From an uncultured Opitutia bacterium (GTDB lineage Bacteria; Verrucomicrobiota; Verrucomicrobiia; Opitutales; Opitutaceae), in the NCBI GenBank assembly GCA_903827245.1, contig CAIKHO010000082.1, positions 1 to 53,236 of the forward strand: a stretch of 53,236 nucleotides of DNA, given 5' to 3'. A program made the position numbers and the translations under genes. Below are positions 3,417 to 47,733 of the stretch, piece by piece. Positions within the stretch are counted from its first letter, which is position 1; each line of letters starts with the position of its first letter. The notes beneath the pieces are model-generated. The model was not told where the DNA came from. It saw nothing but the letters and a program-made list of their open reading frames with translations, and made no database searches.

Positions 3417-4778
3417 ATGCATCTCCTGCTTCGTCCCCTGATCATCGGCTGCCTCGCCGTCCTCGGCCTCATGCCCGCCCGGGCTGCCGATGCCCCGGCT
3501 GCACCCGTGGCTCCTCCCGCACCGTCGTCGTTCAAGTTCGACTTCGGCGGCCAGGCCGCGCCCGGCTACACGGCGGTGAAGCCGACCACGGTTTATTCCA
3601 AGGAGTCGGGCTTTGGCTTTGACCTCGGCACCACGCCGACCGCCGTCGGGCAGGCGGGCGGCGACCCGCTGCGCGATGGTTTTGTGACGAGCGACAAGCC
3701 GTTCTTCTTCTCGGTGAATGTACCCGAGGGCAATTACCGGGTCACCGTGACCCTCGGCGATGCGCAGGCCGACTCGGTCACGACGATCAAGTCCGAGTCG
3801 CGCCGGCTCATGCTGGAGCGTGTGCGCACCCCGGCGGGGAAATTCGAGACGCGCACGTTCATCGCCAATGTCCGCAACGCCAAGGTGCCGCCCCCGCCGC
3901 TGAATGCGCCGGGCAACGACCACGTCGAGCTCAACAACCGCGAGGACGGCCCCAACGGGCTCGTGCTGCACTGGGACGACAAGCTCACGCTCGAGTTCAG
4001 CGACACGCACCCGAGCATCGGCGCAGTCACAATCGACAAGGTTGACGACCTGCCGACGGTGTTTGTGATCGGCGACTCGACCGTGACGGACCAGCCGCGC
4101 GAGCCCACGACGAGCTGGGGCCAGATGCTCCCGCGGTTCTTCAAGCCCCAGGTCGCCGTCGCCAACCACGCCGAGTCCGGCGAGACGATGAAGTCGTTCC
4201 TCACCGAGCTGCGCTTCGACAAGGTGATGAGCCTGATCAAAAAGGGTGACTACCTCATCATGCAGTTCGGCCACAACGACAGCAAAGCGAACTGGCCGCA
4301 GACCTACGTGGAGGCCAACACCACCTACAAGTCCTACCTGAAGACCTTCATCGCCGAGGCCCGTCGCCGCGGCGTCACGCCGATCATCGTGAACCCGATG
4401 CAGCGCCACAATTTCGACGGCGCCAAGGTGCGGAACAGCCACGGCGATTATCCCGAGGCCGTGCGCCAGGTGGCAAAGGAGGAAGGCGTGGCCTTCATCG
4501 ACCTCACCGCCATGAGCATCACGTTCATGGAGGCGCTGGGCCCGGAGAAATCCTTGGTGGCCCAGAGCGGCGGCCGCGACGCCACGCACCACAGCGCCTA
4601 CGGCGCGTACGAGCTGGCGAAGTGCATCGTGCAGGGAATCAAGGACAACAAGCTCGACCTCGCGAAATACATCGTGGACGACTTCGGCACCTTCGACCCG
4701 GCACATCCGGATGATCCGGCCAAGTTTGATGTTCCGGTCAGCCCGGGCCGCGCCACGCAGGCGCCGCGCGGGAATTGA
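3417..4778 (+). CDS. Rhamnogalacturonan acetylesterase, SGNH/GDSL hydrolase (CE12-like), paralogue 2
   Basis: A 453-residue secreted esterase of the same architecture as the gene at 776: signal peptide (MHLLLRPLIIGCLAVLGLMPARA), a Pro/Ala linker, an N-terminal beta domain (FDFGGQAAPGYT...) and an SGNH domain. Visible catalytic residues are Ser221 in FVIGDSTVTDQ, Asn287 in QFGHND, and Asp388/His391 in RDATHHSAYG. The start at 3417 is chosen for the signal peptide; the in-frame ATG at 3270 would add 49 untypical residues. The two paralogues differ mainly in an insertion (about 160-180) and in the tail. Likely role: deacetylation of pectic rhamnogalacturonan. The start has CCCC directly before ATG and no Shine-Dalgarno. 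Confidence 0.88.
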   Translation: MHLLLRPLIIGCLAVLGLMPARAADAPAAPVAPPAPSSFKFDFGGQAAPGYTAVKPTTVYSKESGFGFDLGTTPTAVGQAGGDPLRDGFVTSDKPFFFSVNVPEGNYRVTVTLGDAQADSVTTIKSESRRLMLERVRTPAGKFETRTFIANVRNAKVPPPPLNAPGNDHVELNNREDGPNGLVLHWDDKLTLEFSDTHPSIGAVTIDKVDDLPTVFVIGDSTVTDQPREPTTSWGQMLPRFFKPQVAVANHAESGETMKSFLTELRFDKVMSLIKKGDYLIMQFGHNDSKANWPQTYVEANTTYKSYLKTFIAEARRRGVTPIIVNPMQRHNFDGAKVRNSHGDYPEAVRQVAKEEGVAFIDLTAMSITFMEALGPEKSLVAQSGGRDATHHSAYGAYELAKCIVQGIKDNKLDLAKYIVDDFGTFDPAHPDDPAKFDVPVSPGRATQAPRGN

Positions 4779-4792
4779 GGGCCGCGCGGCGC

Positions 4793-4897
4793 GGGGTAAT
4801 TGGGAGTTGGGAATTTGTAATTGGTAAACTCGATCACGCCCCCGACTCCGACTCCAGATTCCAAATTACCAACTACCAATTCCAAACTCCCATTCCC
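4793..4897. repeat. Intergenic hairpin abutting a start codon
   Basis: Arms of about 34-40 bp (4793-4826 and 4858-4897) are imperfect inverted copies rich in TTGGGAGTT/AATTGGTAA words. The right arm ends two bases before the ATG at 4900, so there is no room for a ribosome binding site apart from the C run inside the arm. Confidence 0.75.
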
Positions 4898-4899
4898 CC

Positions 4900-6639
4900 A
4901 TGCCTACCCCCTCCCTGAAATCCATCTACACCGGCCTCCTGCTCCTCTGCGGGCTGGCCCTGCCCCTGCCGGCGCAACCGGCCCAACCTGCCGTCCAGAC
5001 TGTCGCTCCGCCACCCCCGCCGCCGCCGGCTCCCCCGGTGGTGCTCGACCCGAAGCTGCCGACGATCTTCGTGGCCAGCGACTCCACCGCCGCCCGCGGA
5101 AGCGACACCGGCATCCAGGGCTGGGGCGTGCCCTTCGCGGATTATTTCGACCCGGCAAAGATGAATGTCTTCAACGGCGCCCGCGGCGGCCGCAGCAGCC
5201 GCACCTTCATCACCGACGGCTCGTGGGAGCAGATCATCAGCCGGGTCAAGACGGGCGACTTTGTCCTCATCCAGTTCGGCCACAATGACGGCGGGGCGAT
5301 CAACGACGAGCCGCCACCCCCGCTCCGTGCCCGTGGTTCGCTTCCGGGCATCGGCGAGGAGACGAAGGAAATCGACAACGTCCTGACCAAGAAGCACGAG
5401 GTCGTGCACACCTACGGCTGGTACATGCGGAGCATGGTGGCCGAAGTCCGGGCGAAGGGTGCGACACCGATCCTGCTCACCGTCACCGTCCGCAACAACT
5501 GGAAGGACGGCAAGATCGAGCGCGGGCTTGGCCAGTATGTTCCCTGGACGAAGGAAATCGCGCAGGCCGGCAACGTGGCGTTGGTCGACCTGACCAATAT
5601 CGCCGCCGACGAGTACGAGCGGATCGGCCAGGCCGAGACCGCCAAGCTCTACCAGCCCGACCGCACGCACTCGAACAAGGATGGCGCGGACCTCAACGCC
5701 GCCAAGGTGGTGTCCGGCCTGAAGGCCCTGCGTGGCGTGCAGTTCGCGCAGTATCTCTCGCCCAAGGGCGCGGCCGTGCCCGCCGCGGCGGCCGATCGGG
5801 TCGCCAGCGCCGCGCGTCCCCGCATGCCGCGGCCCGAGCCGGCCGACCCCAAGCTGCCTTCGCTCTTCCTCATCGGCGATTCCACCGTCCGTAATGGCGC
5901 CGGCGACGGCCAGGGCCTCGGCGCCGAGGGCCAGTGGGGCTGGGGCGAGCCGATCGTGGCTTATTTCGATCCCGCCAAGGTCAACGTGGTGAACTGCGCC
6001 GTGGGTGGACTCAGCAGCCGCACCTACCTCACGCAGGGCCACTGGGACCGGGTCATGGGCATGCTCAAGCCGGGCGATGTCGTGCTCATGCAGTTCGGCC
6101 ACAACGACGACTACGCGCTCAACGACGAGCCGCCCGGGCCGCTCCGGGCGCGCGGCACGCTCAAAGGCATCGGCGAGGAGACGAAGGAAATCGACAACGT
6201 CATGACGAAAAAGCACGAGGTCGTGCACACTTACGGCTGGTACCTGCGGAAGTTCATCGCCGACGCCCGCGCGAAGGGCGCCACGCCCATCGTCTGCTCG
6301 CTCATCCCGCGGAAAATCTGGACGGACGACGGGAAAATCAAGCGCGGCAAGGACGACTACGCCGGCTGGGCCGCGCAGGTGGCTGCCGCGGAGCACACGG
6401 GCTTCATCGACCTCAATGAGTCGATCGCCCGCCGCTACGACGAACTCGGCCATGACGCCGTGATGAAACTCTTTCCCCAGGTCACGCCGGACGAGCACAC
6501 CCATCCCAATCGGGCCGGGGCCGAGCTCAATGCGTCGTTCGTCATCGGCGGGCTCAAGGCCCTGCAGGAAGATCCGGTTGCGCCCTATTTTTCCGAAAAA
6601 GCGAAGGGAGTCGCGGTTGTCACCCTCGGCTCGCGCTGA
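4900..6639 (+). CDS. Two-headed GDSL/SGNH acetylesterase (tandem rhamnogalacturonan acetylesterase-like domains)
   Basis: 579 residues: a signal peptide (to about 25), a proline-rich linker (APPPPPPPAPP, about 36-47) and two SGNH domains, about 50-290 and 315-570, joined by an Ala/Pro/Arg linker. Domain 1 has FVASDSTAA (Ser62), ARGGRSSRTF, QFGHNDGG and DRTHSNKDGA. Domain 2 has FLIGDSTVRNG (Ser328), AVGGLSSRTY, QFGHNDDY and DEHTHPNRAGA, where the usual D-x-x-H reads E-H-T-H preceded by Asp. Both halves lack the N-terminal beta domain of the genes at 776 and 3417. Both look active. Family members remove acetyl esters from pectin or xylan. The internal duplication keeps one 76-bp stretch almost identical at the DNA level (see findings). 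The start follows CCCCC directly. Confidence 0.87.
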   Translation: MPTPSLKSIYTGLLLLCGLALPLPAQPAQPAVQTVAPPPPPPPAPPVVLDPKLPTIFVASDSTAARGSDTGIQGWGVPFADYFDPAKMNVFNGARGGRSSRTFITDGSWEQIISRVKTGDFVLIQFGHNDGGAINDEPPPPLRARGSLPGIGEETKEIDNVLTKKHEVVHTYGWYMRSMVAEVRAKGATPILLTVTVRNNWKDGKIERGLGQYVPWTKEIAQAGNVALVDLTNIAADEYERIGQAETAKLYQPDRTHSNKDGADLNAAKVVSGLKALRGVQFAQYLSPKGAAVPAAAADRVASAARPRMPRPEPADPKLPSLFLIGDSTVRNGAGDGQGLGAEGQWGWGEPIVAYFDPAKVNVVNCAVGGLSSRTYLTQGHWDRVMGMLKPGDVVLMQFGHNDDYALNDEPPGPLRARGTLKGIGEETKEIDNVMTKKHEVVHTYGWYLRKFIADARAKGATPIVCSLIPRKIWTDDGKIKRGKDDYAGWAAQVAAAEHTGFIDLNESIARRYDELGHDAVMKLFPQVTPDEHTHPNRAGAELNASFVIGGLKALQEDPVAPYFSEKAKGVAVVTLGSR

Positions 6640-6785
6640 TGGCGGCGGCGGCAAAGTCGTGGAATTTTTTGACCGACTTCCCGGAGAATTCACGCGATGA
6701 CGTAGCTGCCCGGGGACACGAGGCTGGCCTGGCTTAGCCAAGGCCCGGCCCCGTACCCTCGGTAGCTTCCTTCAATCCGGCAGAA

Positions 6786-8519
6786 ATGGACCGCCCCGCC
6801 ATGATTTCCCAACCCACCCGCCGCCTGCGCCAGGCGGTGGCGCTGGCCTTTGTCCTGGCCGGCCCGGTCCTTGCGGCCGCCGACGCGCCTGCCGGGCGCG
6901 TGGTCGACCTTCCGCCGCTGACCGTTTCGGAACCGCTCAACGGCCCACCGTGGCGTTACCTGGAGGCGCCCGGCTTCGAGGTCCTTTCCCGCAGTTCGGA
7001 TGAAGCCACCCAACACCTCGTGCGGGAAATGCACCGTCTCAACGAATATCTCCGCGTGATGCTGCCGGATGAGCTGCAGGCCAGGCCGGCCGTCCCGTCC
7101 ATCGTCGTCATCTACAGCGAGGAAACCAAGCCGGTGGTGTCGCAGGAGGTCGTCGCCGAGCTGCTCGCGGGCCAGGTCGGGAAAAAGCGGAACGCAGAGA
7201 AAAACGTGCGCTACCGCTCGATGCCCAACATGCAGCTCAACGACAAGGATGCCATGGCCTTCTTTTTCATCCTGGAGGAAAAGAATTTCACGAACTCCCG
7301 GCTTGTGCTGACCCCCGATTTTGTCCGCAACGTGATCGAGAAACGGCGGCCGTCCCCGCCGCCCTGGTTCATCGAGGGCATCCTCGGCCTGTACGACACG
7401 GCCGATTTCACGCAGAGCCCGGTCGTCTTCACCGCCCTCCCCTGGCTGACGCCGGCCGAGACGAAGAAGCTGAAGCAGGATGCGGATTACCCGCGCGCGC
7501 TGCTGTCGATGCCGGAGCTTTTCTCCGCCGCTCGGCCGCCGCGGGGGCAGGATCCCGAGCAGTACCGCCAGCTCCGGCGCGCCCAGGCCGTCCTTTTCAT
7601 CCGTTGGGCGCTCGATGGCGACCGCGCCCGGAGCGAGGCCTTGTGGAAGTATGTGGTGCGGGCGAGCGCGGGGCCGGCCGGCGAGGAAGTGTTCCAGGAA
7701 TGCTTCGGCCTCGGTTATGTCGATGTGCAGGAACGGCTGGGCGACTACCTGACCCTCGCCGTGGACCAGCCGATGAAGCTGACGCCTGCGGCGGGGACGC
7801 CCCTGCCGCCGCTGGTGCCGCGCCTGGCGACGGACCTTGAAATTGCCCGGATCAAGGGTGACTGGGAGCGCCTTGAGATCGGCTATGTGGGGACGCGTTA
7901 CCCGCAGCTGACCGAGAAGTACGTCGAGCAGGCCCGCCGGACGCTCCGGCGGGCGTACGACAAGGGCGAGCGCGATCCCCGCCTGCTGGCCGTGCTCGGG
8001 CTGTGCGAATGCGATGCGGGTAACGACGCCCTGGCGCGCCCGTTTCTCGAGGCTGCGGTGCGGGGCGGGGTGCTGCGGCCGCGCGCCGACTACGAACTCG
8101 CCCGCCTGCGCTACGCCGAGGCCCAGACCGCCCCCGCCGCTCCCGGCGGCCGGTTCAGCGGGGCCCAGGCCACTGCGGTGCTCGAGTCCCTCGCGGACGC
8201 CAGCCGCCAGCCGCCCCCGCTCCTCGAGATTTACGCGCTGGCCGGCGAAGTGTGGAGCCGGAGCAACGTGGCCCTCTCCCGGCTGAATCTCTCCGTGCTG
8301 GAGCAAGGGATCGCCTATTTTCCGCGCAATCCCCAGCTGGTCTACCAGGCGGCGTGGCTGAATGCCCGCCAGGGATTCAAGGCCGAGGCCGAGGCGCTCA
8401 TCGAGCGCGGACTGAAGGCCGAACCCGACCCCGCCAGCCAGTCCTACTTCGAACTCCTGCGCTCCGCACTCAATTCCCCGGAGGGAAAACCCTCCTCATT
8501 GCCGGGAGGTGGACCGTGA
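6786..8519 (+). CDS. Secreted protein with TPR-like tail; degenerate peptidase-MA/DUF1570-like N-terminal half (tentative)
   Basis: 577 residues with a signal peptide (VALAFVLAGPVLAAA). An alternative start is the ATG at 6801. Residues about 55-300 read like DUF1570/peptidase MA proteins: FEVLSRSSDEATQHL, then IVVIYSEE, then PPPWFIEGILGLYD, which resembles the WxxEG that follows the zinc motif in that group. The HExxH motif expected just before WFIEG is absent (the segment reads LTPDFVRNVIEKRR), so this would not be a zinc peptidase. Residues about 375-560 look like helical TPR repeats. The stop overlaps the GTG start of the next gene by 4 bp, so the two are translationally coupled and probably act together. 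I do not recognise a precise function; the family link is tentative. Confidence 0.55.
   Translation: MDRPAMISQPTRRLRQAVALAFVLAGPVLAAADAPAGRVVDLPPLTVSEPLNGPPWRYLEAPGFEVLSRSSDEATQHLVREMHRLNEYLRVMLPDELQARPAVPSIVVIYSEETKPVVSQEVVAELLAGQVGKKRNAEKNVRYRSMPNMQLNDKDAMAFFFILEEKNFTNSRLVLTPDFVRNVIEKRRPSPPPWFIEGILGLYDTADFTQSPVVFTALPWLTPAETKKLKQDADYPRALLSMPELFSAARPPRGQDPEQYRQLRRAQAVLFIRWALDGDRARSEALWKYVVRASAGPAGEEVFQECFGLGYVDVQERLGDYLTLAVDQPMKLTPAAGTPLPPLVPRLATDLEIARIKGDWERLEIGYVGTRYPQLTEKYVEQARRTLRRAYDKGERDPRLLAVLGLCECDAGNDALARPFLEAAVRGGVLRPRADYELARLRYAEAQTAPAAPGGRFSGAQATAVLESLADASRQPPPLLEIYALAGEVWSRSNVALSRLNLSVLEQGIAYFPRNPQLVYQAAWLNARQGFKAEAEALIERGLKAEPDPASQSYFELLRSALNSPEGKPSSLPGGGP
8501..8510 (+). promoter_or_regulatory. 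Clear Shine-Dalgarno before a coupled GTG start
   Basis: GGGAGGTGG lies about 5-8 bases before GTG 8516, inside the 3' end of the upstream gene. It decides the start of the S9-like gene and is the only convincing Shine-Dalgarno sequence I found in the window. Confidence 0.75.
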
Positions 8520-10777
8520 ACCGCCGCCTGGCCGCATCGGCGTTGCTGGCCGCGCTCCTGCTCCGGCCGGCACCGGCGCGCGCCGATGCGCCGACTGCGG
8601 GGGAGATCGCCGCGCTGCTCCGGCCCGACCGGATCCTGCAGGTGGCGCTGGCCCCGGACGGGCACCACCTGGCCTACACCGTGCACGACGAGGGAAAGAC
8701 CGTGATCTTCATCATCGACGTGGACGACCCGGCGAAGCGGGCCGTGGTCCCGCTGGCCTATGACGAGGTGATGCGTGACTCGGGGGACCACGAGAAAACC
8801 CCCGCGCATGTGCCCTTTTTCCGCTGGTCCGGATCTGGCCGGCTCGTCTTTTCCGCGGAGCGGCCCGCCCTCGACGTCGTCGATGTCCGGAGAAAAAACG
8901 CGCCTGCCAACACGACCGCGGTCTATGCGGTCGATGCCGACGGCAAGCACGTCCTGATGCTGGCCGATGAAGACACCTTCGCCGTGGAGACGATGCGCGG
9001 CAACGACCCGGTCAGCCTGCCGCGGGAACCTCGCGTGGTCGACCTCGCGGCGGACGACCCGGACAGCGTCCTCGTCGAGGCCGTGCGCCCGGCGCTCCGC
9101 GTCCCGGGCAATCCCAACGCCACGGTGGGACAGCTGGCCACGGGGCTGTTCAAGGTGAATGTCCATACCGGCAAATTCCAGAAACTGTACGAACGCGACG
9201 TCAACGGCTCGGTCCTCTACGACCGGCAGGGCAATGCGCGCATCCTGCTTTCGGCGCCGATCGACCAGAAGGTGCAATCGTTCTTCTACCTGCCCCCGCC
9301 CGCGGGGCAGGCCGACGGCAAGGGGCTGGGCCAGCTGCTGGGCGACGACATCTCCCCGGAGAATTACCTCGGGACGCGCACCTTCCCCGTGGGTTTCGAT
9401 CCTGATCCGAACATTGTCTATGTCGCCTCCAACGCCGGGCGCGACACCTACGGCCTTTATGCGGTCGACCTGCGCGCGCGGCGGCGCACCGGGTTCGCCG
9501 TCGAGGTCCCGGGCTTCGATGTGGCCGGGTTTCAGGCCCCGTTTTCGGACTCGGACCTCGTGTTCGACCGCAGCCGCGGAAAGCTGGTGGGTGTCAGGAT
9601 CAACGGGCTTGAGGCGTCCACGCAATGGCTCGACCCGGACCTCGCGCAAGTGCAGGCGGCGCTCGACGGCAAGCTCTCCGGCCGCAGCGCGCGCATCGTC
9701 GACTGGGACGACGCGCGTGCCCGCTTTCTCGTGCTCACCTCCGGCGGGGCCGACCCCGGGCGTTACTACATCTACCAGCGGGAACAGGATCGGCTCGTGC
9801 AATTCATCCGGTGCGCCCCCTGGATCGACCTGGACAAGGCCAATCCCGGAACCTCGTTCGCCTTCGACACCCCGGAGGGTGTGCACCTCACGGGCTACCT
9901 GACGCTCCCGCGGGCGCCGCTCATCACTCCGCCACCGCTGCTGGTGTACTGCCACGCCGGCCCTTGGCAGCGCGACGACCCGGGATTCAACCGCGACGCG
10001 CAGGTGCTGGCCGGCATGGGCTTTGTCGTGCTGCAGGTGAACTACCGCGGCTCCGCCGGCTTCGGCACGCAGTTTCGCGAGGCCATCCGCCAGGATCTCG
10101 ACCGCATCCCGCTTGCGGACATCCGCGCGGCGATCTCCTGGGCGTCCGCGGGACACAAGATCGACCGGAAGCGGGTCGCGCTGCTGGGCGAGGGCTTCGG
10201 CGGATATCTCGCCCTGCGCGCGCTCCAGCTTTACCCGGATGAATTTCGCTGCGCGGTCACGATCAATGCGCCGACAGACCTGGAGCTGTGGTGCGAGAAG
10301 CCGGAGAGCAAACAGGAGCAGGAGGATGACATGGAGGCCTCCGCCACCTCCATGCGACAGATGCAGCGCTACTTTCGCAGCATGAACTCGCGGGGAGGCG
10401 CCCGGCCTCCAGCCCAGCCGCCCGAGATGGCGGTCGCGCCCGTGAATTTTTCCAGCGAGTTCCGCCGCTGGTACTTTGGCGGGGACAGCGCGCGGCTGGC
10501 GGCCCTTTCGCCGGCCCGTCATCCGGAATTGCTCACCAAGCCCCTGCTCCTGATCCAGGATCCCGAGGACAAGTACGTGTCGGCCGGCCAGGCCTCGGCC
10601 CTGCGCACGGCGATGGCCCGCGCCGGCGCGACGCCGGACTACCTGGAAATCACCAGCGAGTTCGCGCGCGGCCTGCCCGGCGCCCGCACGCGGGTCTTCA
10701 CCGCGATGGAGGACTTCTTCAACCTGAACCTTTACGATTTCAACGTGAAGATCGGCGAGACGAAGGTGCAGAAGTAA
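8516..10777 (+). CDS. S9 (prolyl oligopeptidase)-family protein with lost catalytic Ser and His: predicted pseudo-peptidase
   Basis: 753 residues: signal peptide (1-24), a beta-propeller (about 40-460; SxSG-type words such as FRWSGSGRLVFS) and an alpha/beta-hydrolase domain (about 470-750) with the usual QVNYRGSAGFG motif. The start is the GTG at 8516, which has a good Shine-Dalgarno and overlaps the previous stop (GTGA). The nucleophile elbow, normally G-x-S-x-G-G, reads GEGFGG: Gly560 replaces Ser. The Asp motif is kept (QDPEDKYV, Asp685). The His normally found in a HGF-like motif near the end is missing; the last 50 residues contain no His. The fold is clear, but hydrolysis is unlikely. 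It may bind peptides or act as a partner of the coupled upstream protein. Export to the periplasm is predicted. Confidence 0.82.
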   Translation: MNRRLAASALLAALLLRPAPARADAPTAGEIAALLRPDRILQVALAPDGHHLAYTVHDEGKTVIFIIDVDDPAKRAVVPLAYDEVMRDSGDHEKTPAHVPFFRWSGSGRLVFSAERPALDVVDVRRKNAPANTTAVYAVDADGKHVLMLADEDTFAVETMRGNDPVSLPREPRVVDLAADDPDSVLVEAVRPALRVPGNPNATVGQLATGLFKVNVHTGKFQKLYERDVNGSVLYDRQGNARILLSAPIDQKVQSFFYLPPPAGQADGKGLGQLLGDDISPENYLGTRTFPVGFDPDPNIVYVASNAGRDTYGLYAVDLRARRRTGFAVEVPGFDVAGFQAPFSDSDLVFDRSRGKLVGVRINGLEASTQWLDPDLAQVQAALDGKLSGRSARIVDWDDARARFLVLTSGGADPGRYYIYQREQDRLVQFIRCAPWIDLDKANPGTSFAFDTPEGVHLTGYLTLPRAPLITPPPLLVYCHAGPWQRDDPGFNRDAQVLAGMGFVVLQVNYRGSAGFGTQFREAIRQDLDRIPLADIRAAISWASAGHKIDRKRVALLGEGFGGYLALRALQLYPDEFRCAVTINAPTDLELWCEKPESKQEQEDDMEASATSMRQMQRYFRSMNSRGGARPPAQPPEMAVAPVNFSSEFRRWYFGGDSARLAALSPARHPELLTKPLLLIQDPEDKYVSAGQASALRTAMARAGATPDYLEITSEFARGLPGARTRVFTAMEDFFNLNLYDFNVKIGETKVQK

Positions 10778-10811
10778 GCCGGAAAGTCCGCCAGGTTTCG
10801 CACTTTATGCA

Positions 10812-10877
10812 CAGGTGGCCCCCGACCTCCGGGCGGCTGAGATGCCACTCCGCCGCCCGGAGGTCGGCGGCCACCTG
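10812..10877. repeat. REP-like hairpin between convergent genes (family GGAGGTCGGCGGCCACC)
   Basis: Arms 10812-10837 and 10852-10877 are inverted 26-bp copies with one mismatch around a 14-nt loop. It lies between the stop codons of two convergent genes, where it could end transcripts from both sides, though it has no T tract. Confidence 0.85.
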
Positions 10878-10898
10878 GCGAGACACACTCCCTAAAAC

Positions 10899-12866
10899 CT
10901 AGCGCATCGCCCGCCGGGCCGCTTCCAGTCCGTCCTGCGCCTCGGTCAGGCGGGGATCAAGCCGCAGCGCTTCCTGAAAATGGGACGCCGCCTCCCGTGG
11001 CTGTCCCGCCTGCAGCAACGCGTCGCCGAGGTTCAAGTGCGCGGCTGCATCGTCCGGCTTGAGCCGCAGCACCGCCTCGTCGTGGCGGATGGCCTCTGGC
11101 AGGCGCCCAAGATGGGCCAGTACGAGGCCGAGATTGTAATGGGGCTCGATGTCGTCCGGCTTGAGGCGCAGTGCCTGTTCGAAGTGGGCGACGCTTTCCT
11201 CGATGCGCCCGGTCGAGAGCAGCGCGTTGCCCAGGTTGTTTTCCACCTTGGGCAGATCGGGTTTGAGCCGCACGGCGCGCTCGTAAACGGGAATCGCTTC
11301 CGTCATCCGGTTTTGCAGCACGAACGCGTCGCCGAGATGGGTCAGGCTCTCGACGTCATCCGGCTTGGCCTGCACGAGATCCTGCAGCAGCGGGATGGCT
11401 TCCGCCGGGTGGTGGGTGCGGAGCAGGGCCAGACTGAGATTGTACATCACCTCGGGTTTTTCCGGGTGAAACCGCTGGGCGATCAAAAGGTGTTCGATCG
11501 CCTCGGCACTGCGGCCGGTCTTGACCAGCAGGCCCCCGAGGTTGCCCTGGATCAGCCAGGCGTCGGGATTCCGGGCGAGCGTATGCCGGTAGAGCGTTTC
11601 CTCATCGCGGTACATCCGGCTTTGCCGCCAGGTCAGGACCCCGAGCAGGGCCAGCACGGCGAGACCCAGCCCGCGCGTGGCGGGTTCGCCCAGCCACCGT
11701 TTCAATCCGGCTCCGCCCGCAGCCGCCAGGACGATCACCCCGGCGCACGCCATGTACTGGAGGTGGTCCGCCACGAAGGAGAACACGAACAGGTAGACGT
11801 TCAAAAATCCGAGGATCGGGAGCAGCGTCCCGATGAAGAACAGCGCTGCGGCCAGCGGCCCGCGCGAACGCCGGCGCAGCAGCCAGAGTGCGGCGAGCGC
11901 GGCCAGCACCGCCGCGGGCCAGAGGAACTGCGCGGCGTCGGCCTGGCTGATCGACCAGCGCGGGTAGATGAAGACCAAGTCCGCTGGCCAGACGATTTTC
12001 CCGAGGTAGAACCAAACGGCCCGCCCGGCGATCAGCGTGCGCTCGATGACGTTGAACGCAAAGTCGGAACCCTGTGCCCCAATCACCGTGGATTCGATCC
12101 ACGCGACGAACAGCCCATTGGCCGCGCCGAGGACGAAGAAGGGAAGCAAAGGCGTCCAGTCCCGCCGCCACGACAGGCGGCCGCGCTGCCACCAGAACAC
12201 CACCAGCATTGCGCCGGGCAGGGTGGCCGCCGTCGTCTTGCTCAGCAACGCGAGGACAAACAAGCCGATGGCCGCCGCGTACGATCGCCACCTCCGCTCC
12301 TCGTCGAAGCGGAGATAAACCAGTGCGGCACCCAGAACGAAGAACCCGGAGAGCGTGTTCTTGAGCTCGGTCATCCATGCGACCGATTCGACCATCACCG
12401 GGTGCAGCGCGAAAACGCCGGCCGCGAAAGCTGCGCCCGGAATCCGCAGCCGGCGCAGGATCAGCCACAGCAGGACGGCATTCAGCGCGTGCATGCCGAT
12501 GTTGACCAGGTGATAGCCCGTTGCGGTATCCCCGAACAGCGGGTACTCGAGCCACGTGAATGTGTGCAGCAGCGGATAATACTGCTGCACGGCACCGACC
12601 TCGAACCAGATGCGCGCGAGACCGTGCCACGAGCGCAGCTCGGGGGGCGTGACGTGTGCGTCGTCGTCCCAGACAAACCCCGCGTGCCACGCCGGCTGGT
12701 ACGCGAGGAAGACTGCGGCGACGAGGGCGAACAGAAAATACCATTCCCAGCGGGACAAGGAAGCCGGAGGCAGAACCGTGGCGGGTCGCGGGACAGGGGC
12801 TGCCGGAACGGGCGAGGGCAGACCTCCGGTCGAAGCGGGTCGGGAACGATGATTGCGACGGGCCAT
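10899..12866 (-). CDS. PMT/TMTC-like multi-spanning membrane protein with C-terminal TPR repeats
   Basis: 655 residues. After a Pro-rich cytosolic N-terminus (1-38), about 9-11 membrane helices follow (about 42-430). The first loop contains WDDDAH (66-71), the acidic motif typical of GT-C-fold, PMT-like glycosyltransferases and of TMTC proteins, and a later LNAVLLWLILRRL helix fits too. The C-terminal 220 residues are six or so tetratricopeptide repeats (A-x-x-x-Y/H-N-L-G pattern). Such proteins are found in many environmental bacteria, usually annotated only as TPR proteins; transfer of a sugar from a lipid carrier to proteins is inference. The ATG at 12866 is preferred to the TTG at 12893. 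It is convergent with the S9-like gene. Confidence 0.75.
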   Translation of the reverse strand: MARRNHRSRPASTGGLPSPVPAAPVPRPATVLPPASLSRWEWYFLFALVAAVFLAYQPAWHAGFVWDDDAHVTPPELRSWHGLARIWFEVGAVQQYYPLLHTFTWLEYPLFGDTATGYHLVNIGMHALNAVLLWLILRRLRIPGAAFAAGVFALHPVMVESVAWMTELKNTLSGFFVLGAALVYLRFDEERRWRSYAAAIGLFVLALLSKTTAATLPGAMLVVFWWQRGRLSWRRDWTPLLPFFVLGAANGLFVAWIESTVIGAQGSDFAFNVIERTLIAGRAVWFYLGKIVWPADLVFIYPRWSISQADAAQFLWPAAVLAALAALWLLRRRSRGPLAAALFFIGTLLPILGFLNVYLFVFSFVADHLQYMACAGVIVLAAAGGAGLKRWLGEPATRGLGLAVLALLGVLTWRQSRMYRDEETLYRHTLARNPDAWLIQGNLGGLLVKTGRSAEAIEHLLIAQRFHPEKPEVMYNLSLALLRTHHPAEAIPLLQDLVQAKPDDVESLTHLGDAFVLQNRMTEAIPVYERAVRLKPDLPKVENNLGNALLSTGRIEESVAHFEQALRLKPDDIEPHYNLGLVLAHLGRLPEAIRHDEAVLRLKPDDAAAHLNLGDALLQAGQPREAASHFQEALRLDPRLTEAQDGLEAARRAMR

Positions 12867-13049
12867 GGCGACGGGGTGGGCGGGCGGCGCCAATACGGAC
12901 CCACGGTGCCGGAAGACGTCAATGGCGTAGCTGGGCTGCAGCCGGGCCTCGGCGAGGCCGGATCCAGCTTGGAGGGGAAAGCAGAATCAATGACGGTAAA
13001 ACGTACCTTATCGTAGATTCGGCCGTGGGTTAATTTGCCGATGATTGGA

Positions 13050-41823: not shown

Positions 41824-44800
41824 ATGTCAATTGTTTCGCTTCTTAGTTCGGTCCTGCGGCGGCCCGCTTTTGCCCGTTTGGCCCTTCTCGGCATGGCGCC
41901 CCTGGCGCTGGTGGCTCAAAGCAACACCCCTTCCTCGGCCGACGGGTTTGACCCGAACGTCAACGGCATCGTGTATGCGCTGGCGATCCAGACCGATGGT
42001 AAGATCTTGGTGGGCGGGAATTTCACGTCGCTTCAGCCCAACGGCGCGGGCACGCCCGTCACCCGCAACAACCTGGCCCGCGTCAATCCCGACGGCACCC
42101 TCGATTCCACCTTCAATCCAAACGTCAACAGCCAGGTCAACGCGGTGGCGGTGCAGGCGGACGGCAAGATCGTGATCGGCGGCGTGTTCACCTCGGTCGG
42201 CGGGGCGTCGCGCAACGGCCTGGCCCGGCTTAATGCCGATGGCTCGCTCGACAGCTCGATCAATCTCACCTTCGCCAACTCCGGCTCCCCTTCTTCCCCG
42301 GTGGTCAATGCGCTGGCGATCCAGTCCGATGGCAAGATTCTGGTCGGCGGTGCGTTCACGGCGGTGATTCCCGCCGGCTCGGCCACCGCGACCCTGCGCA
42401 ATCGCGCGGCCCGGTTCAATGCGGACGGCTCGCTCGACACCACCTTCGACCCGAATGCCAACAGCACCGTCTTCGCACTGAGCGTGCAGTATGACGGCCG
42501 GATTCTCATCGGCGGCGCGTTCACCACGCTGCAGCCCAAAGGCGCGTCCGTGGCGACGGCCCGCAATCACATTGCCCGGTTCAATGCGGATGGCTCGCTC
42601 GACACCACCTTCGACCCGAACGCCAATGCGACCGTCAGCGTGATCACGACGCAGCCGGATGGCTCGATTTTGCTCGGCGGCTTTTTCACCGGGTTCGCGC
42701 CCAATGGCGCGGTTTCCGCGATCACGCGCAACCGGGCCGCCCGCCTGAACATCGACGGCACGGTGGACACCAGTTTCGACGCAAATTTGGGCTCCAACGT
42801 CACTGCGATCGCCGTCCAGGACGACGGCGGGATCCTCCTCGGCGGTGTGTTCGTCACCGTCGGTGGCAACAGCCTCAGCTACTGTGTCCGGGTCGGCTCG
42901 TCCGGATTGCTGGACCAGTTCTTTGACGCCGGCGCCAACCAGGTGGTCAACGCGTTTGCCGTACAAGCCGATGGCCGGATCATCATCGGCGGCAATTTCT
43001 CCCAAGTGAAGCCCCTGAAGTCGTCGGCGGCCATCCGCAACCATCTCGCGCGGTTGAACAGTGATGGCACCCCGGATGTCAGCTTCGACCCCAGCACGGC
43101 CGGCCGCGTGAGCGCGATGGCCAGCCAGCCCGACGGCAGGATCGTGTTCGGCGGTTCCTTTTCCAGCGTCGCCGGCGTGGCGCGCAACGGCATCGCCCGC
43201 AGCAACGCTGACGGCTCCCTCGACGGCACCTTCGATCCCAACGTCAACGGCATCGTCAGCGCGATTGCGATCCAGTCCGACGGCAAGATCGTCATCGGCG
43301 GCCAGTTCACGAGCGTGGGCGGCGTGACGCGCAATAACGTTGCCCGGCTCAACGCCGACGGCAGTCTCGACCAGGTCTTTGATCCCAATGCCAACGACGT
43401 GGTCACGGCCATTGCGATCCAGTCCGATGGCAAGGTCATCATCGGCGGCAACTTCGCGGGCCTGCAGCCCAACGGCTCCACCACGGTCTACGCCACCAGC
43501 ACCCTGGCGCGCCTTAACACCGACGGCACGCTCGACACCACCTTCGCCGTGTTCTTCAACGGCAATGTCCTCGGATTGAAGATCCTCTCCGACGGTCGCA
43601 TCCTCGTAGCCGGTAACTTCATCGCGCTGAGGGTCGGCGGGGGCGGTTATTCCACCACCCAGAGTTACATCGTGCGACTCAGCACCACCGGCCTGGCCGA
43701 CACCACGTTCAGCCCCGGGCCCAACAACCGGATCGAGTCGTTCGTGGTCCAGGCCGACGGCAAAATCGTGGTGGGCGGCATCTTCACGACGTTCCAGCCG
43801 AACGGCGCGGCCACGGCCAACGCTATTACACGCAACCACATCGCCCGCTTGAACGCGGACGGCACGGTTGATCCGACCTACGATCCGAGCGCCAACAACG
43901 AGGTCCGCGACCTCGCCCTGCAGGCGGACGGCAAGGTCTTGATCGGCGGCATTTTCTCCGCCCTGCAGCCGAATGGCTCCACCACCGCGATCAATCGCAG
44001 CTACCTCGCGCGGGTGAATACCGACGGCACCATCGACACCGCGTTCGACGCCCTGCCGGGTGCGGCGGTCAACGCCATGCTGGTGCAGGCGGACGGCCGC
44101 GTCCTCCTCGGCGGCGCCTTCACCTCGCTGGTGTCGCTCAGCACATCGGTCGTCAACCCGCGCAACCACTTGGCCCGGGTCAACACCGACGGCACGCTTG
44201 ATGCCACATTCGATCCGTCCATCAGCAGCAATCTATCGGGCACCGTGGTCAAGGCCCTGGCCGTCCAGACTGATGGCAAGATTCTGCTGGGCGGAAGTTT
44301 TGCCAACTTGGGCGGCGCCTCGAGCGGCAACTTCGTCCGTTTCAACTCCGACGGGTCGCTGGACACCTCCTTTGCCCCGGCCGTGGACGGCCCGGTCACC
44401 GCGATCGGGGTTCAGACCAACAAGGGCGCCATCGTCACGCAGGGCAACACCTTCGCCTGGCTCAACAGCAACGGGCTCCCGCGCACGGCCTTCATTCCCA
44501 GCTCCAATGCCCAGCTGGTCGGCCAGGTCTCGGCTGTCGCGACGCAGGCCGACGGCAGCGTTTTGCTCGGCGGTTCCTTCACGAACCTGTCGGGTGCGAC
44601 CAGCAGCAACCTGGTCCGCTTCAAGCCGGATGGAACTCTCGACACCGGCTTCAACCCGTCGCCCAGCGGCCGGGTGAATGCCATCGTCGTGCAGGCGGAC
44701 GGCAAGATTGTCGTCGGCGGTTCCTTCGCCGCCGTGGGTACCACCGTGCGCAACAACATTGTCCGGCTGAACTCCGATGGCACGATCGACACGACCTACG

Positions 44801-47733
44801 ACCCGAATACCAACGACGTCGTGAACGCGCTCGTGCTGCGGCCCGACGGCCGGATCCTGGTGGCGGGCGGATTCACCTCCTTCGACCCCAACGGGTCGGC
44901 CACGGTGATCGCGCGCTCCCGGCTGGCCCTGCTGAACACGGACGGCACCGTCGACGGCAATTTTTATCCCGCGACCAATGACGTGGTCCTCGCCCTGGCG
45001 GTGCAGGCCGACGGCAAGATCCTGATCGGCGGCTCGTTCACCGCGGTCCAGTCGAACACCACGATCATCTCGTCCGCCGCTGTGACGCGCAATCGCGTCG
45101 CCCGGCTGAACTCCGACGGCACGCTCGACACCGGCTTCGACCCGAATGCCAACAGCGTTGTGGCCACCATTGTGGTGCAGCCCGACGGCAACATCCTGCT
45201 CGGCGGCTTCTTTACCACCATCGGTGGCTGGACCCGCGAATTTATTGCCCGCGTTCTGCCCAACGGGGGCAACGACCCCGCCTTTAATCCGGGCGCCAAC
45301 GGCCAGGTCACCCGTATCGTCCTTCAGCCCAACAACCAGATTCTCGTCGGTGGCTCCTTTTCCAATGTGGCCGGCACGACGCGCAACAATCTGGCGCGGC
45401 TCAACAGCAACGGCCTGATCGACGCCACCTTCGATCCCAACGTGAACAGTGAGGTCGACGCCGTGGTCCTGCTCCCGGATGGGGGCATTCTCATCGGCGG
45501 TATTTTCAGCGGCTTGCAGCCCTACGGCGTGATCCTGGCCGGCGGCACCTTCAGCCACGCCAGCGGCTCCGCGATCAGCAACCTCGTGCTCTTCAATGAG
45601 GACGGCAACGCCAACGCCGCCTTCCAGCCCAATCCCAACGGCCCGGTCAATGCGATCGTCGTGCAGCCGGACGGACGCCTGCTTATCGGCGGTGCGTTCA
45701 CCAGCATCGCGGGAACCGCCCGCAACCGCCTCGCGCGTTTCAACGCCGACGGGTCGCTCGATACCGCCTTCAATCCCAACGTCAGCGACCAGGTCAACGC
45801 CCTGACCTTGCAGAGCGACGGCCGGATCCTGGTCGGCGGTGCGTTCACGAGCATCGGCGGCACCGCCCGCAACCGCCTGGCGCGGCTGAATACCGATGGT
45901 TCGGTCGACGGCTCCTTCAATCCCAATGCCAGCGATGTCGTCACCGCCTTGCTTGTCCAGGCCGACGGCAGCGTGGTGGTCGGTGGCGCGTTCACGAGCA
46001 TCGGTGGCACGGTGCGCAATCGCGTCGCCCGCCTTACCTCCGGTGGCAGTGTAGACGGCTCCTTCAATCCCAACGCCAATGGCGCGGTCAATGCCCTCGC
46101 CTTGCAGGCGGATGGCCGGATCGTGATCGGTGGCGCCTTTACCAATGTGGCCGGTGCCGCCCGCAACCGCCTGGCGCGCGTCAATGCGGACGGTTCGCTC
46201 GACGCCAGCTTCGATCCGTCGGCGGACGACGTGGTGTACGCGCTGACCCTCCAGTCCGATGGCAAGCCGGTGGTCGGCGGCGCCTTCGCCCGGGTTGGCG
46301 GCCTGGCCCGCTACCGTTTCAGCCGTCTTTCCGCCACGGGGGCGTCCACGCAGTCCGTGACCCTCGGCAGCGACCAGACGACGCTGACCTGGACGCGCGG
46401 CGGCAACGGTCCCGAACTCACCTGGGTGACGTTTGAGCTGTCGACCGACCTCCAGACCTGGACCGCTCTCGGCCAGGCCGGTCGGGTCGGAACCACGGCC
46501 AACTGGCAGCTGGCCGGTGCGGCCCTGCCGACGAACGCGACATTCTTCGTGCGCGCCCGGGGTTCACTCCCGGCCTCGCAATACAGTTCGGCCGGCTTGG
46601 TCGAGTCGGTGCGGAAATTTTTCCCGCGGCCGCTCTTCTCCAATGCCACGGCCAGCGGCAGCACGGGCTCGTCGTTCTTCTATGCGGTCACCGCCGGCAA
46701 TTCGCCCGGAAGTTTCAGCGCCACGGGGCTTCCGGCGGGGCTGAGCATCAATGCGCTCACAGGTATCATCTCTGGCACACCGACCCAGACCGGCACGTTC
46801 AATGTCGCGCTGAGCGCCACCAATGGCGCCGGCACGAGTGCCGGCACGCTCACGCTCGTCATCGGCGCATCCTCGGGGAGCTCCGGCGGCACGGTCCCCC
46901 ACATGGTCAATGTTTCCATCCGTGCCAGCGTGACGAGCGGCCATCCGATCTTCCTTGGGTTTGTCATCTCCGGCACCGAGTCGAAGACCGTGCTGCTGCG
47001 GGGCGTGGGCCCGACCTTGAGCGCCTATGGGGTCACGGGTCCGCTGCCCGTTCCGCGCCTGCTGCTCTTCAACGCCAGCGGCACCTTGCTGCTGGAGAAT
47101 GATGGCTGGGCCAGCAACAGCGGTCTGTCGGCGGCGTTCACGAGTGTCGGCGCGTTTCCGTTTGCCGCGGGCAGCGCCGATACCGCTGCGATCGCGACCC
47201 TCCCGCCCGGCGCCTACACGATGCAGGTGGTGGACGGCAGCGGGGCCGGTGGCATCGCCTTGGCCGAGGTCTACGATGCGAACACCAGCCAGTCCGCCAC
47301 GGCGTCCCGGTTCGGCAACATGTCCGCCCGCGGTCCTTCCTCCGGCAGCGCCAATCCCCTCATCGCCGGCTTCGTGGTCGCCGGGAACACCTCCAAGCGC
47401 CTGCTGGTGCGCGGGGTGGGACCTGGTCTCGCCGCCTACGGCGTCACGGATGCCTTGAGCGACTCGGTCGTCGGGGTTTACGACAACCAGGGAAACTTGA
47501 TTGCCAAGAACGACGACTGGGGCACGCCCATCACCATCGTGGCGAGCCAGACAGCGGCCAGCCCCGCGACGATCGCGGCGGTGGCGCTCACCGCCGGTGC
47601 GTTTGCCCTCACCACCGGGGGTCTGGACTCTTCCGTGATCGTTACGCTCCCGCCCGGCCTCTACACGGTGCAAGTGAACGGGGTCAACGGCGCCACGGGT
47701 TCCGCCCTCGCCGAGCTCTACGAGCTGCCTTGA
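41824..47733 (+). CDS. Giant secreted delta-60 repeat protein with Ig-like and paired tail domains
   Basis: 1,969 residues from ATG 41824 (a TTG at 41785 is the upstream option); signal peptide to about residue 30. About 28 delta-60 repeats fill residues 35-1505, each following the plan ...FDPNxNxxVxAxxxQxDGKIxxGGxFTSxxGxxRNxxARLNxDGSLD; these predict beta-propeller-like sheets. Repeat 16 lacks the GG core and repeat 23 (45430-45602) looks like two units fused with loss of the middle. Then come a fibronectin-like segment (about 1515-1595), a putative-Ig (He_PIG) domain (about 1600-1685: SATGLPAGLSINALTGIISG) and two copies of a 125-residue tail domain (about 1693-1820 and 1829-1969: LLRGVGPTLSAYGV and LVRGVGPGLAAYGV). 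No LPXTG or PEP motif ends it. It is probably a surface or extracellular protein of unknown role. Confidence 0.88.
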   Translation: MSIVSLLSSVLRRPAFARLALLGMAPLALVAQSNTPSSADGFDPNVNGIVYALAIQTDGKILVGGNFTSLQPNGAGTPVTRNNLARVNPDGTLDSTFNPNVNSQVNAVAVQADGKIVIGGVFTSVGGASRNGLARLNADGSLDSSINLTFANSGSPSSPVVNALAIQSDGKILVGGAFTAVIPAGSATATLRNRAARFNADGSLDTTFDPNANSTVFALSVQYDGRILIGGAFTTLQPKGASVATARNHIARFNADGSLDTTFDPNANATVSVITTQPDGSILLGGFFTGFAPNGAVSAITRNRAARLNIDGTVDTSFDANLGSNVTAIAVQDDGGILLGGVFVTVGGNSLSYCVRVGSSGLLDQFFDAGANQVVNAFAVQADGRIIIGGNFSQVKPLKSSAAIRNHLARLNSDGTPDVSFDPSTAGRVSAMASQPDGRIVFGGSFSSVAGVARNGIARSNADGSLDGTFDPNVNGIVSAIAIQSDGKIVIGGQFTSVGGVTRNNVARLNADGSLDQVFDPNANDVVTAIAIQSDGKVIIGGNFAGLQPNGSTTVYATSTLARLNTDGTLDTTFAVFFNGNVLGLKILSDGRILVAGNFIALRVGGGGYSTTQSYIVRLSTTGLADTTFSPGPNNRIESFVVQADGKIVVGGIFTTFQPNGAATANAITRNHIARLNADGTVDPTYDPSANNEVRDLALQADGKVLIGGIFSALQPNGSTTAINRSYLARVNTDGTIDTAFDALPGAAVNAMLVQADGRVLLGGAFTSLVSLSTSVVNPRNHLARVNTDGTLDATFDPSISSNLSGTVVKALAVQTDGKILLGGSFANLGGASSGNFVRFNSDGSLDTSFAPAVDGPVTAIGVQTNKGAIVTQGNTFAWLNSNGLPRTAFIPSSNAQLVGQVSAVATQADGSVLLGGSFTNLSGATSSNLVRFKPDGTLDTGFNPSPSGRVNAIVVQADGKIVVGGSFAAVGTTVRNNIVRLNSDGTIDTTYDPNTNDVVNALVLRPDGRILVAGGFTSFDPNGSATVIARSRLALLNTDGTVDGNFYPATNDVVLALAVQADGKILIGGSFTAVQSNTTIISSAAVTRNRVARLNSDGTLDTGFDPNANSVVATIVVQPDGNILLGGFFTTIGGWTREFIARVLPNGGNDPAFNPGANGQVTRIVLQPNNQILVGGSFSNVAGTTRNNLARLNSNGLIDATFDPNVNSEVDAVVLLPDGGILIGGIFSGLQPYGVILAGGTFSHASGSAISNLVLFNEDGNANAAFQPNPNGPVNAIVVQPDGRLLIGGAFTSIAGTARNRLARFNADGSLDTAFNPNVSDQVNALTLQSDGRILVGGAFTSIGGTARNRLARLNTDGSVDGSFNPNASDVVTALLVQADGSVVVGGAFTSIGGTVRNRVARLTSGGSVDGSFNPNANGAVNALALQADGRIVIGGAFTNVAGAARNRLARVNADGSLDASFDPSADDVVYALTLQSDGKPVVGGAFARVGGLARYRFSRLSATGASTQSVTLGSDQTTLTWTRGGNGPELTWVTFELSTDLQTWTALGQAGRVGTTANWQLAGAALPTNATFFVRARGSLPASQYSSAGLVESVRKFFPRPLFSNATASGSTGSSFFYAVTAGNSPGSFSATGLPAGLSINALTGIISGTPTQTGTFNVALSATNGAGTSAGTLTLVIGASSGSSGGTVPHMVNVSIRASVTSGHPIFLGFVISGTESKTVLLRGVGPTLSAYGVTGPLPVPRLLLFNASGTLLLENDGWASNSGLSAAFTSVGAFPFAAGSADTAAIATLPPGAYTMQVVDGSGAGGIALAEVYDANTSQSATASRFGNMSARGPSSGSANPLIAGFVVAGNTSKRLLVRGVGPGLAAYGVTDALSDSVVGVYDNQGNLIAKNDDWGTPITIVASQTAASPATIAAVALTAGAFALTTGGLDSSVIVTLPPGLYTVQVNGVNGATGSALAELYELP

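Follow-up and report, generated by a model that had tools for sequence, protein, structure and literature searches.

Overlapping genes in Opitutaceae encode two unrelated peptidase-like proteins that both appear to have lost their active sites

RESULTS

Two overlapping genes for degenerate peptidases

The stretch of DNA analyzed in this study (the window) comprises positions 1 to 53,236 of contig CAIKHO010000082.1 (assembly GCA_903827245.1), all 53,236 nucleotides read on the forward strand, and stems from an uncultured Opitutia bacterium of the family Opitutaceae. It contains two overlapping genes, here named P2 and P1. P1 encodes a protein with the fold of S9 serine peptidases in which the catalytic Ser and His are lost, and P2 encodes a protein with TPR repeats and a degenerate domain resembling a zinc peptidase. 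The features of the two genes are as follows.

6786..8519, + strand: gene P2, 577 amino acids, predicted to be exported, with an N-terminal degenerate DUF1570/peptidase-MA-like (gluzincin) domain and C-terminal TPR repeats
6903..6926, + strand: TonB-box-like stretch VDLPPLTV, P2 residues 40 to 47, after the signal peptide
7314..7328, + strand: place of the HExxH motif, here P177-D178-F179-V180-R181, both zinc His residues lost (by alignment; helix 177-185 in the model)
7374..7376, + strand: Glu197 in WFIEG, at the third zinc-ligand position, retained here and in 17/45 paired P2 proteins
8516..8519, + strand: GTGA, four-base overlap of P2 stop and P1 start
8516..10777, + strand: gene P1, 753 amino acids, predicted exported S9-fold protein with beta-propeller and alpha/beta-hydrolase domain, catalytic Ser and His lost
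10187..10204, + strand: nucleophile elbow GEGFGG (GGCGAGGGCTTCGGCGGA), P1 residues 558 to 563, with Gly560 at the place of the catalytic Ser
10217..10219, + strand: Arg568, near-invariant in Ser-less proteins and absent from 11 Ser-bearing relatives
10568..10570, + strand: Asp685, aligned with the catalytic Asp, which is present in only 5/45 paired proteins
10661..10663, + strand: Phe716, aligned with the catalytic His
10730..10774, + strand: C-terminal tail LYDFNVKIGETKVQK, of a kind common to most Ser-less relatives and not seen in Ser-bearing ones; low-confidence end in the monomer model

The list of open reading frames also offers a longer P1 frame from 8252. We preferred the GTG at 8516 as the start because the ribosome-binding-like sequence GGGAGG lies six bases upstream and the codon overlaps the P2 stop. 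From there the frame runs uninterrupted over 753 amino acids to the stop at 10777, and its GC contents at the three codon positions (0.71/0.46/0.87) are like those of the neighboring genes, which agrees with the intact frame and normal codon use described in the original prediction. The N terminus of P1 looks like a (cleavable) signal peptide, suggestive of export.

P1 keeps the S9 fold with Gly at the nucleophile position

The Pfam profile Peptidase_S9 (PF00326) matched P1 with 86.2 bits (cut-off, 22.6), in an alignment that runs through the elbow. An AlphaFold2 model of P1 (28 sequences; pLDDT 85.8, pTM 0.85) displays the propeller and the alpha/beta-hydrolase fold, and all of its best 50 Foldseek matches were S9-type enzymes (top match 8wt1, 8.5e-30). 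VIA-align superposed the model on an acylaminoacyl peptidase (Z 32.2, root mean square deviation 4.8, 519 residues aligned) and on the S9 carboxypeptidase 8wt1 (Z 32.0, root mean square deviation 3.9, 573 residues aligned), with 17 to 18% identity. The retention of the propeller, as proposed from the DNA sequence, is thus borne out by Pfam, the model, and both structural searches.

Within the model, strand 549-558, Gly559, and helix 560-571 (numbered without the first Met) form a usual nucleophile elbow. Since Pfam, model, and structure alignments all put this elbow in register, Gly560 occupies the position of the nucleophile, as originally predicted for GEGFGG. The last 50 residues are also free of His, the last one being His669. 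Measured against an S9 peptidase, P1 therefore has the fold and the Asp (Asp685) and lacks both the Ser of GxSxGG and the His, whose place is taken by Phe716. A true nucleophile Ser elsewhere in the hydrolase domain, which would contradict the original prediction, was sought in 43 P1 proteins encoded beside a P2 gene and was not found: in their hydrolase domains, no Ser, His, or Cys is conserved to at least 70%, except Ser665, which is present in 32/43 and also occurs in 8/11 Ser-bearing S9 proteins. We rejected a substitute nucleophile or triad, as there is no clade-specific Ser, Cys, or His at 70% conservation.

The Ser loss is shared by a large clade

A search of 200 Opitutaceae genomes yielded S9 matches in 173, Ser-bearing proteins included, and P1 scores above 170 bits were confined to Opitutaceae, the family of the window. 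Sixty regions were fetched as a hand-picked, non-random sample, mostly around the stronger S9 matches, and 73 S9 frames were aligned. The S9 alignment omits L054_5915 and L108_9998 (labels of this kind are our handles for loci), and the S9 tree of 70 tips also omits L054_6395 and L007. A check of orthologues for conserved loss of Ser and His had been suggested together with the original prediction; on the tree, 59 of the 70 tips form one clade (support 0.955) that is entirely devoid of the Ser. Judging from this tree, loss of the catalytic Ser is an old, clade-wide state. An assembly or sequencing error or chance as the source of Gly560 was rejected, the change being common to relatives.

Residues were counted in a merged set of 86 S9 proteins, from which frames shorter than 500 amino acids and near-identical copies had been removed. 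The second S9 piece of L054 lies outside this count and reads GQGFGG in its copy L115_5525. Among the 45 P2-linked proteins of the set, the elbow residue is Gly in all 43 in which it is readable (2/45 are unreadable), and none has His in the His column (0/45). The Asp column holds Asp in 5/45. The original statement that the Asp motif remains is hence true of the window's P1 and does not extend to the family. The elbow residue of the 41 S9 proteins without P2 is Gly in 24, Ser in 11, Asp in 2, and Asn, Lys, Trp, and Ala in one each. Because the basal Ser-less members of the clade (L069, L074, L079, and L080) retain His, and two of them (L069 and L080) also have Asp at the triad place, the sequences suggest that Ser was lost first and the other triad residues later.

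Two Ser-less proteins, L088_4737 and L106, lie outside the main clade. L088 carries a tandem S9 pair (4737-9054, - strand): in one protein GSSYGG is accompanied by His, whereas the other reads GGGFGG and lacks His, an independent loss beside a Ser-bearing paralogue. L106 (5109-7145, - strand) represents a further independent S9 inactivation, with the elbow GYGALGG and neither Ser nor His.

P2 resembles zinc peptidases without their HExxH motif

The original prediction had mentioned an unusual partner of P1, which was correct and understated, as P2 itself appears to descend from a peptidase and its HExxH is gone. Pfam scans of P2 gave weak TPR matches, and a direct match to DUF1570 or Peptidase_MA_2 was found neither for the window's P2 nor among 21 families in 59 relatives. 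A P2 profile search retrieved L232 at 120 bits and L231 at 80 bits. These two proteins have intact motifs (HEYVH and HEGTH) followed by WLNEG and WLEEG, respectively, match DUF1570 above and Peptidase_MA_2 below the cut-off, and align with P2 over the same domains. In P2, Pro177, Asp178, and Arg181 replace their His, Glu, and His, while Glu197 is kept. HExxH is absent from all paired P2 proteins (0/45), as is the combination of both His residues (0/45); the second His alone occurs in 1/45. Among 68 unpaired P2 proteins, HExxH is present in three, namely L231, L232, and L192_5038, of which L231 and L232 were added deliberately as intact relatives to the P2 tree and to this count.

The AlphaFold2 model of P2 (pLDDT 88.0, pTM 0.87) consists mainly of helices with few short strands, and helices 177-185 and 193-203 lie where the HExxH and Glu helices are expected. 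Solved relatives found by sequence or fold search were mostly TPR proteins. Zinc peptidases were represented by one entry among the best 50 Foldseek matches, the insect aminopeptidase 4wz9 (probability 0.84), and by none among the best 50 VIA-align matches. Because the fold searches return mostly TPR proteins, the zinc-peptidase origin of P2 rests on sequence; by this evidence, P2 is probably derived from a DUF1570/peptidase-MA-like zinc peptidase. In L192, an intact HExxH protein (5038-7170, + strand) is encoded near a degenerate P2 relative with an STN domain (8601-10898, + strand), an arrangement that recalls the tandem of intact and dead S9 genes in L088.

Occurrence and co-inheritance of the pair

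Of the 60 regions, 26 have a P2 relative adjoining a Ser-less S9 gene. The order is P1 then P2 in all but two regions; these two, from the genus of the window, have P2 then P1. We listed 31 pairs from 25 genomes and 12 genera of one family, Opitutaceae; the list excludes L054, in which the S9 gene is split. Long open frames are present in 30/31 pairs, and in L093 neither frame spans its full query. The pair is repeated as a unit in several loci, twice each in L052, L053, and L089 and three times in L068. Paired S9 copies with a further eroded hydrolase domain (gaps at the Asp and His segments) were observed in L154, L162, and L163, where P2 is still present.

A pattern-based scan with the P2 alignment in a collection of 84,980 species gave 71 P2 loci, labeled Opitutaceae, Opitutae, Opitutia, Opitutus, Lacunisphaera, or other Verrucomicrobia. 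Twenty-nine of the 71 loci have an adjacent S9 frame, which in two of them (L158 and L167) is a weak partial match. In 18 of the 42 remaining loci (L110, L111, L113, L114, and others), P2 is preceded by the same kind of gene, whose product resembles a Gfo/Idh-type oxidoreductase. Across 387 genomes of the phylum, in a search that scored only a few candidates per genome, P2 matches exceeded 100 bits solely in the window's family and in G531, a genome from another family of the order; 20 regions were chosen from these matches. Of 223 genomes of the order, 12 had P2 matches at 1e-20, namely 11 of the window's family and G531.

For the P2 tree, 133 sequences were reduced to 114 by removal of near-identical copies, and 113 were used. 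All 45 linked P2 proteins are gathered in a clade of 47 (support 0.879) that arises from within unlinked P2 proteins; deep support on this tree is in part very low. P1 and P2 thus appear, from the tree, to have been joined once. Both peptidases probably lost their active sites before that, since unlinked members of both families already lack them. The P1 and P2 distance matrices of the 31 pairs correlate with r = 0.836, the largest value of 999 permutations being 0.237, and the true assignment of within-genome paralogues ranked 1 of 96.

Selection and gained features

Ratios of nonsynonymous to synonymous substitutions (dN/dS; NG86) among three species of the window's genus were 0.27 to 0.39 for P1 and 0.26 to 0.44 for P2, at dS of 0.84 to 0.96, so that both genes are under purifying selection. 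Features that were gained weigh more than these ratios. Arg568, eight residues past Gly560, is found in 42/43 paired proteins, in 90% of 30 further Ser-less proteins, and in none of the Ser-bearing proteins (0/11), a comparison set classed by sequence that includes the distant L007 and L108_9998. Most Ser-less proteins end in a tail of the type LYDFxVxxGxxK, which the Ser-bearing ones lack; it is absent from a few paired members, e.g., L100, L154, and L053_4459. Residues 743 to 752 of the P1 model are of low confidence, as might be expected of a tail that binds a partner. Purifying selection together with the near-invariant Arg568 and the new C-terminal tail argues that a non-catalytic role of P1 is maintained. 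The description of P1 as a maintained pseudo-enzyme is accordingly supported by the uniform Gly of paired proteins, the 59-tip Ser-less clade, and the dN/dS values.

A TonB-box-like motif in P2

The segment that connects the signal peptide of P2 proteins to the domain contains a motif, [VI]xLPP[FML]xV, whose loose form is present in 105/109 distinct sequences. Of the four that do not fit, three are truncated or run-on frames and one is the intact L192_5038, and the motif is absent from the three intact HExxH proteins inspected. Most receptors inspected from the same genomes have a similar hxLxxFxV(T/S)-like stretch before the plug. The receptor set was drawn from 145 Plug matches in three genomes; 29 of 30 loci were used, and 23 gave a motif. 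A matrix from these 23 receptors scored the P2 N termini at a median of 11.4 bits and that of the window's P2 at 14.2 bits, and 94/104 P2 proteins exceeded the 95th percentile of shuffles. S9 (P1) N termini stayed at control level, with 5/73 above the 95th percentile of other P2 pieces.

When the motif was required in its strict form, it occurred in 102 of 3257 open frames, 95 of them P2. The seven others are five alike receptor-type frames (L090, L099, L135, L146, and L169; some are second copies of one locus), L112, and L068_3203, in which the match lies inside an S9 frame. Plug domains are present in L090 and L112, the two that were scanned. In two unpaired P2 relatives, L192_8601 and L188_4544, an STN domain precedes the motif, at 28.6 bits (cut-off, 28.4) and 26.2 bits (below the cut-off), respectively. 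TonB-dependent transducers are built in the same sequence, with signal peptide, STN domain, and TonB box followed by plug and barrel. The genome of the window encodes TonB (8 TonB_C matches) and has 13 Plug matches. P2 gave no Plug or barrel match in Pfam scans of the window's protein and its relatives, and its model is mainly helical.

Genomic neighborhood

In the window, the pair lies within a cluster for pectin/hemicellulose breakdown (728-27669) with three GDSL-type esterase genes (one of them two-domain) and genes for GH43, GH39, GH35, GH115, an alpha-L-arabinofuranosidase, and a PcRGLX-type rhamnogalacturonan lyase. A third neighbor common to the pairs was not found, the largest other clusters occurring in at most 8 of the 60 regions, so the ligand need not be pectin. 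Downstream of P1 and convergent with the pair, a gene at 10899-12893 (- strand) encodes a TPR-repeat protein with a fused PMT_2-type glycosyltransferase membrane domain. In a frame of 1969 amino acids at 41824-47733, DUF5122 beta-propeller stretches occur 21 times, along with a putative Ig domain.

DISCUSSION

We propose, with a probability of roughly 0.6, that the overlapping P2 and P1 genes encode an exported, non-catalytic two-protein module. That the role of the pair is non-catalytic is, from the residues lost and gained, very probable, and the data suggest that P1 and P2 together bind or retain a target in the cell envelope rather than cleave it. The two proteins would form a complex, located in the periplasm or at the outer membrane, and we consider direct contact of this kind reasonably probable. 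The S9 cavity and the TPR superhelix could then offer surfaces to which a peptide or protein ligand binds, with P2 as the scaffold and P1 as a propeller-gated cavity. The TonB-box-like stretch at the N terminus of P2 might tether the module to TonB or to a partner that recognizes the same motif, a link that we infer from motif similarity and rate as less likely than not. The module would act as an adaptor, scaffold, or sensor, like the pseudo-enzymes MamO, CspC, and DPP10, and not as a protease. An extended version, which we consider unlikely, sees P2 as a barrel-less TonB client: a receptor's signal peptide, in some cases STN, and TonB box would be placed on a dead zinc peptidase with TPR repeats, soluble and periplasmic, which after both losses recruited a dead serine peptidase as its cognate partner, giving one TonB-coupled binding machine.

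Several observations weigh against the proposal of an exported two-protein module. The "dead" status of P1 and P2 is a sequence-based call, and L067 and L070 have a His one place beyond the His column. No S9 frame was present in the stretch examined in 42/71 P2 loci, of which 33 had upstream room; in the other 9, fewer than 2300 bases upstream of P2 were covered and an S9 gene could be missed. Likewise, 28 of the 59 Ser-less S9 tips come from loci without P2. With unpaired members in both families, neither P1 nor P2 always needs the other. Co-inheritance by itself yields correlated trees, and the margin of the paralogue test is small (0.836 versus 0.835). Concerning the TonB link, the receptor motifs and the P2 segments were both selected with motif-like expressions, which favors a positive outcome of the matrix comparison, and the window's own VDLPPLTV does not fit the strict form.

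P1 could still be an enzyme that uses other residues or another reaction, e.g., through Arg568, Asp529, Thr463, or Cys579. The near-invariant Arg568 is indeed close to the elbow, Asp529 is found in 35/43 paired proteins and is rare in Ser-bearing ones (mostly Gly), and Cys579 is found in 29/43. However, the 43 hydrolase domains offer no widely conserved Ser, Cys, or His save Ser665, which Ser-bearing proteins share, and the paired L154, L162_4319, and L163 have gaps at the Asp and His segments, making this alternative very unlikely. Those three eroded copies, the L054 S9 copy split by one TAA, and the L093 frames that cover neither query fully might instead indicate a gene pair decaying toward loss. 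We regard this as exceedingly improbable given dN/dS of 0.26 to 0.44 for both genes in three species, long open frames in all listed pairs but L093 across 12 genera, and the gain of conserved residues.

Harder to dismiss is the possibility that P1 and P2 share an operon or pathway without contact, each being a lone binding protein. Unpaired members in both families would be expected then, and the gene order differs, with P2-P1 in the window's genus versus P1-P2 in the other pair-bearing genera. The single clade of linked P2 proteins, the repetition of the pair as a unit in L052, L053, L068, and L089, and the correlated distances speak for contact, and we judge its absence improbable. That the N-terminal P2 motif serves the lineage as a general signal for export or anchoring, unrelated to TonB, is a substantial possibility, if short of probable, as the case for TonB consists of the similarity of a short motif. 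Such a signal fits poorly with the distribution of the strict form (95 P2 versus 7 other frames of 3257), with the Plug domains of its matches L090 and L112, and with P1 N termini at control level (5/73).

Pseudo-enzymes as such are already well known. Like DPP10 and DPP6, the S9B pseudo-peptidases of animals, P1 has an S9 fold in which the catalytic Ser is replaced, in DPP10 also by Gly: human DPP10 has the elbow GKGYGG with a Ser-to-Gly change at Gly651 (PMC4350108). DPP10, however, retains the other two triad residues, His and Asp, and is a type II membrane protein that modulates Kv4 channels, whereas P1 is bacterial, also lacks His, has a signal-peptide-like start, and has a second dead peptidase as its genetic partner. 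The loss of His sets it apart from the DPP6/DPP10 type, in which the rest of the triad is kept beside the replaced Ser. MamO and CspC belong to peptidase families other than those of P1 and P2. They are bacterial pseudoproteases that serve non-catalytic roles, such as we propose for the pair: MamO of magnetotactic bacteria is described to activate an active protease and to bind metal (PMC4794232), and CspC of Clostridioides difficile is described to participate in signal detection (PMC6636752). Unlike for P1, a dead metallopeptidase partner is mentioned in neither abstract (PMC4794232, PMC6636752).

P2 in turn appears to be related to DUF1570/Peptidase_MA_2 proteins with TPR repeats, here L232 and L231, to which it can be aligned across its domains, but differs from them by the loss of HExxH in 45/45 paired proteins and by the added TonB-box-like motif. 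With TonB-dependent transducers, it shares the kind and place of this motif and, in two unpaired relatives, a preceding STN domain, but not a plug or barrel match. Searches of open-licence literature listed no paper on a bacterial S9 pseudo-enzyme family or on such a pair.

For annotation, P1 is a warning: it scores far above the Pfam S9 cut-off and yet should not count as a peptidase. The pseudo-peptidases that we can name work alone or with an active enzyme at their side (DPP10 and MamO). In Opitutaceae, two dead peptidases of unrelated families, one serine and one zinc type, are kept paired in 12 genera, with new conserved residues replacing the chemistry. If the TonB motif is real, it would represent a route for soluble proteins into the TonB energy system, and the pair, observed to date in a single family, could, if coupled to TonB, pull or remodel a bound peptide or gate receptors. 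The pair is thereby a testable bacterial system for non-catalytic roles of protease folds.

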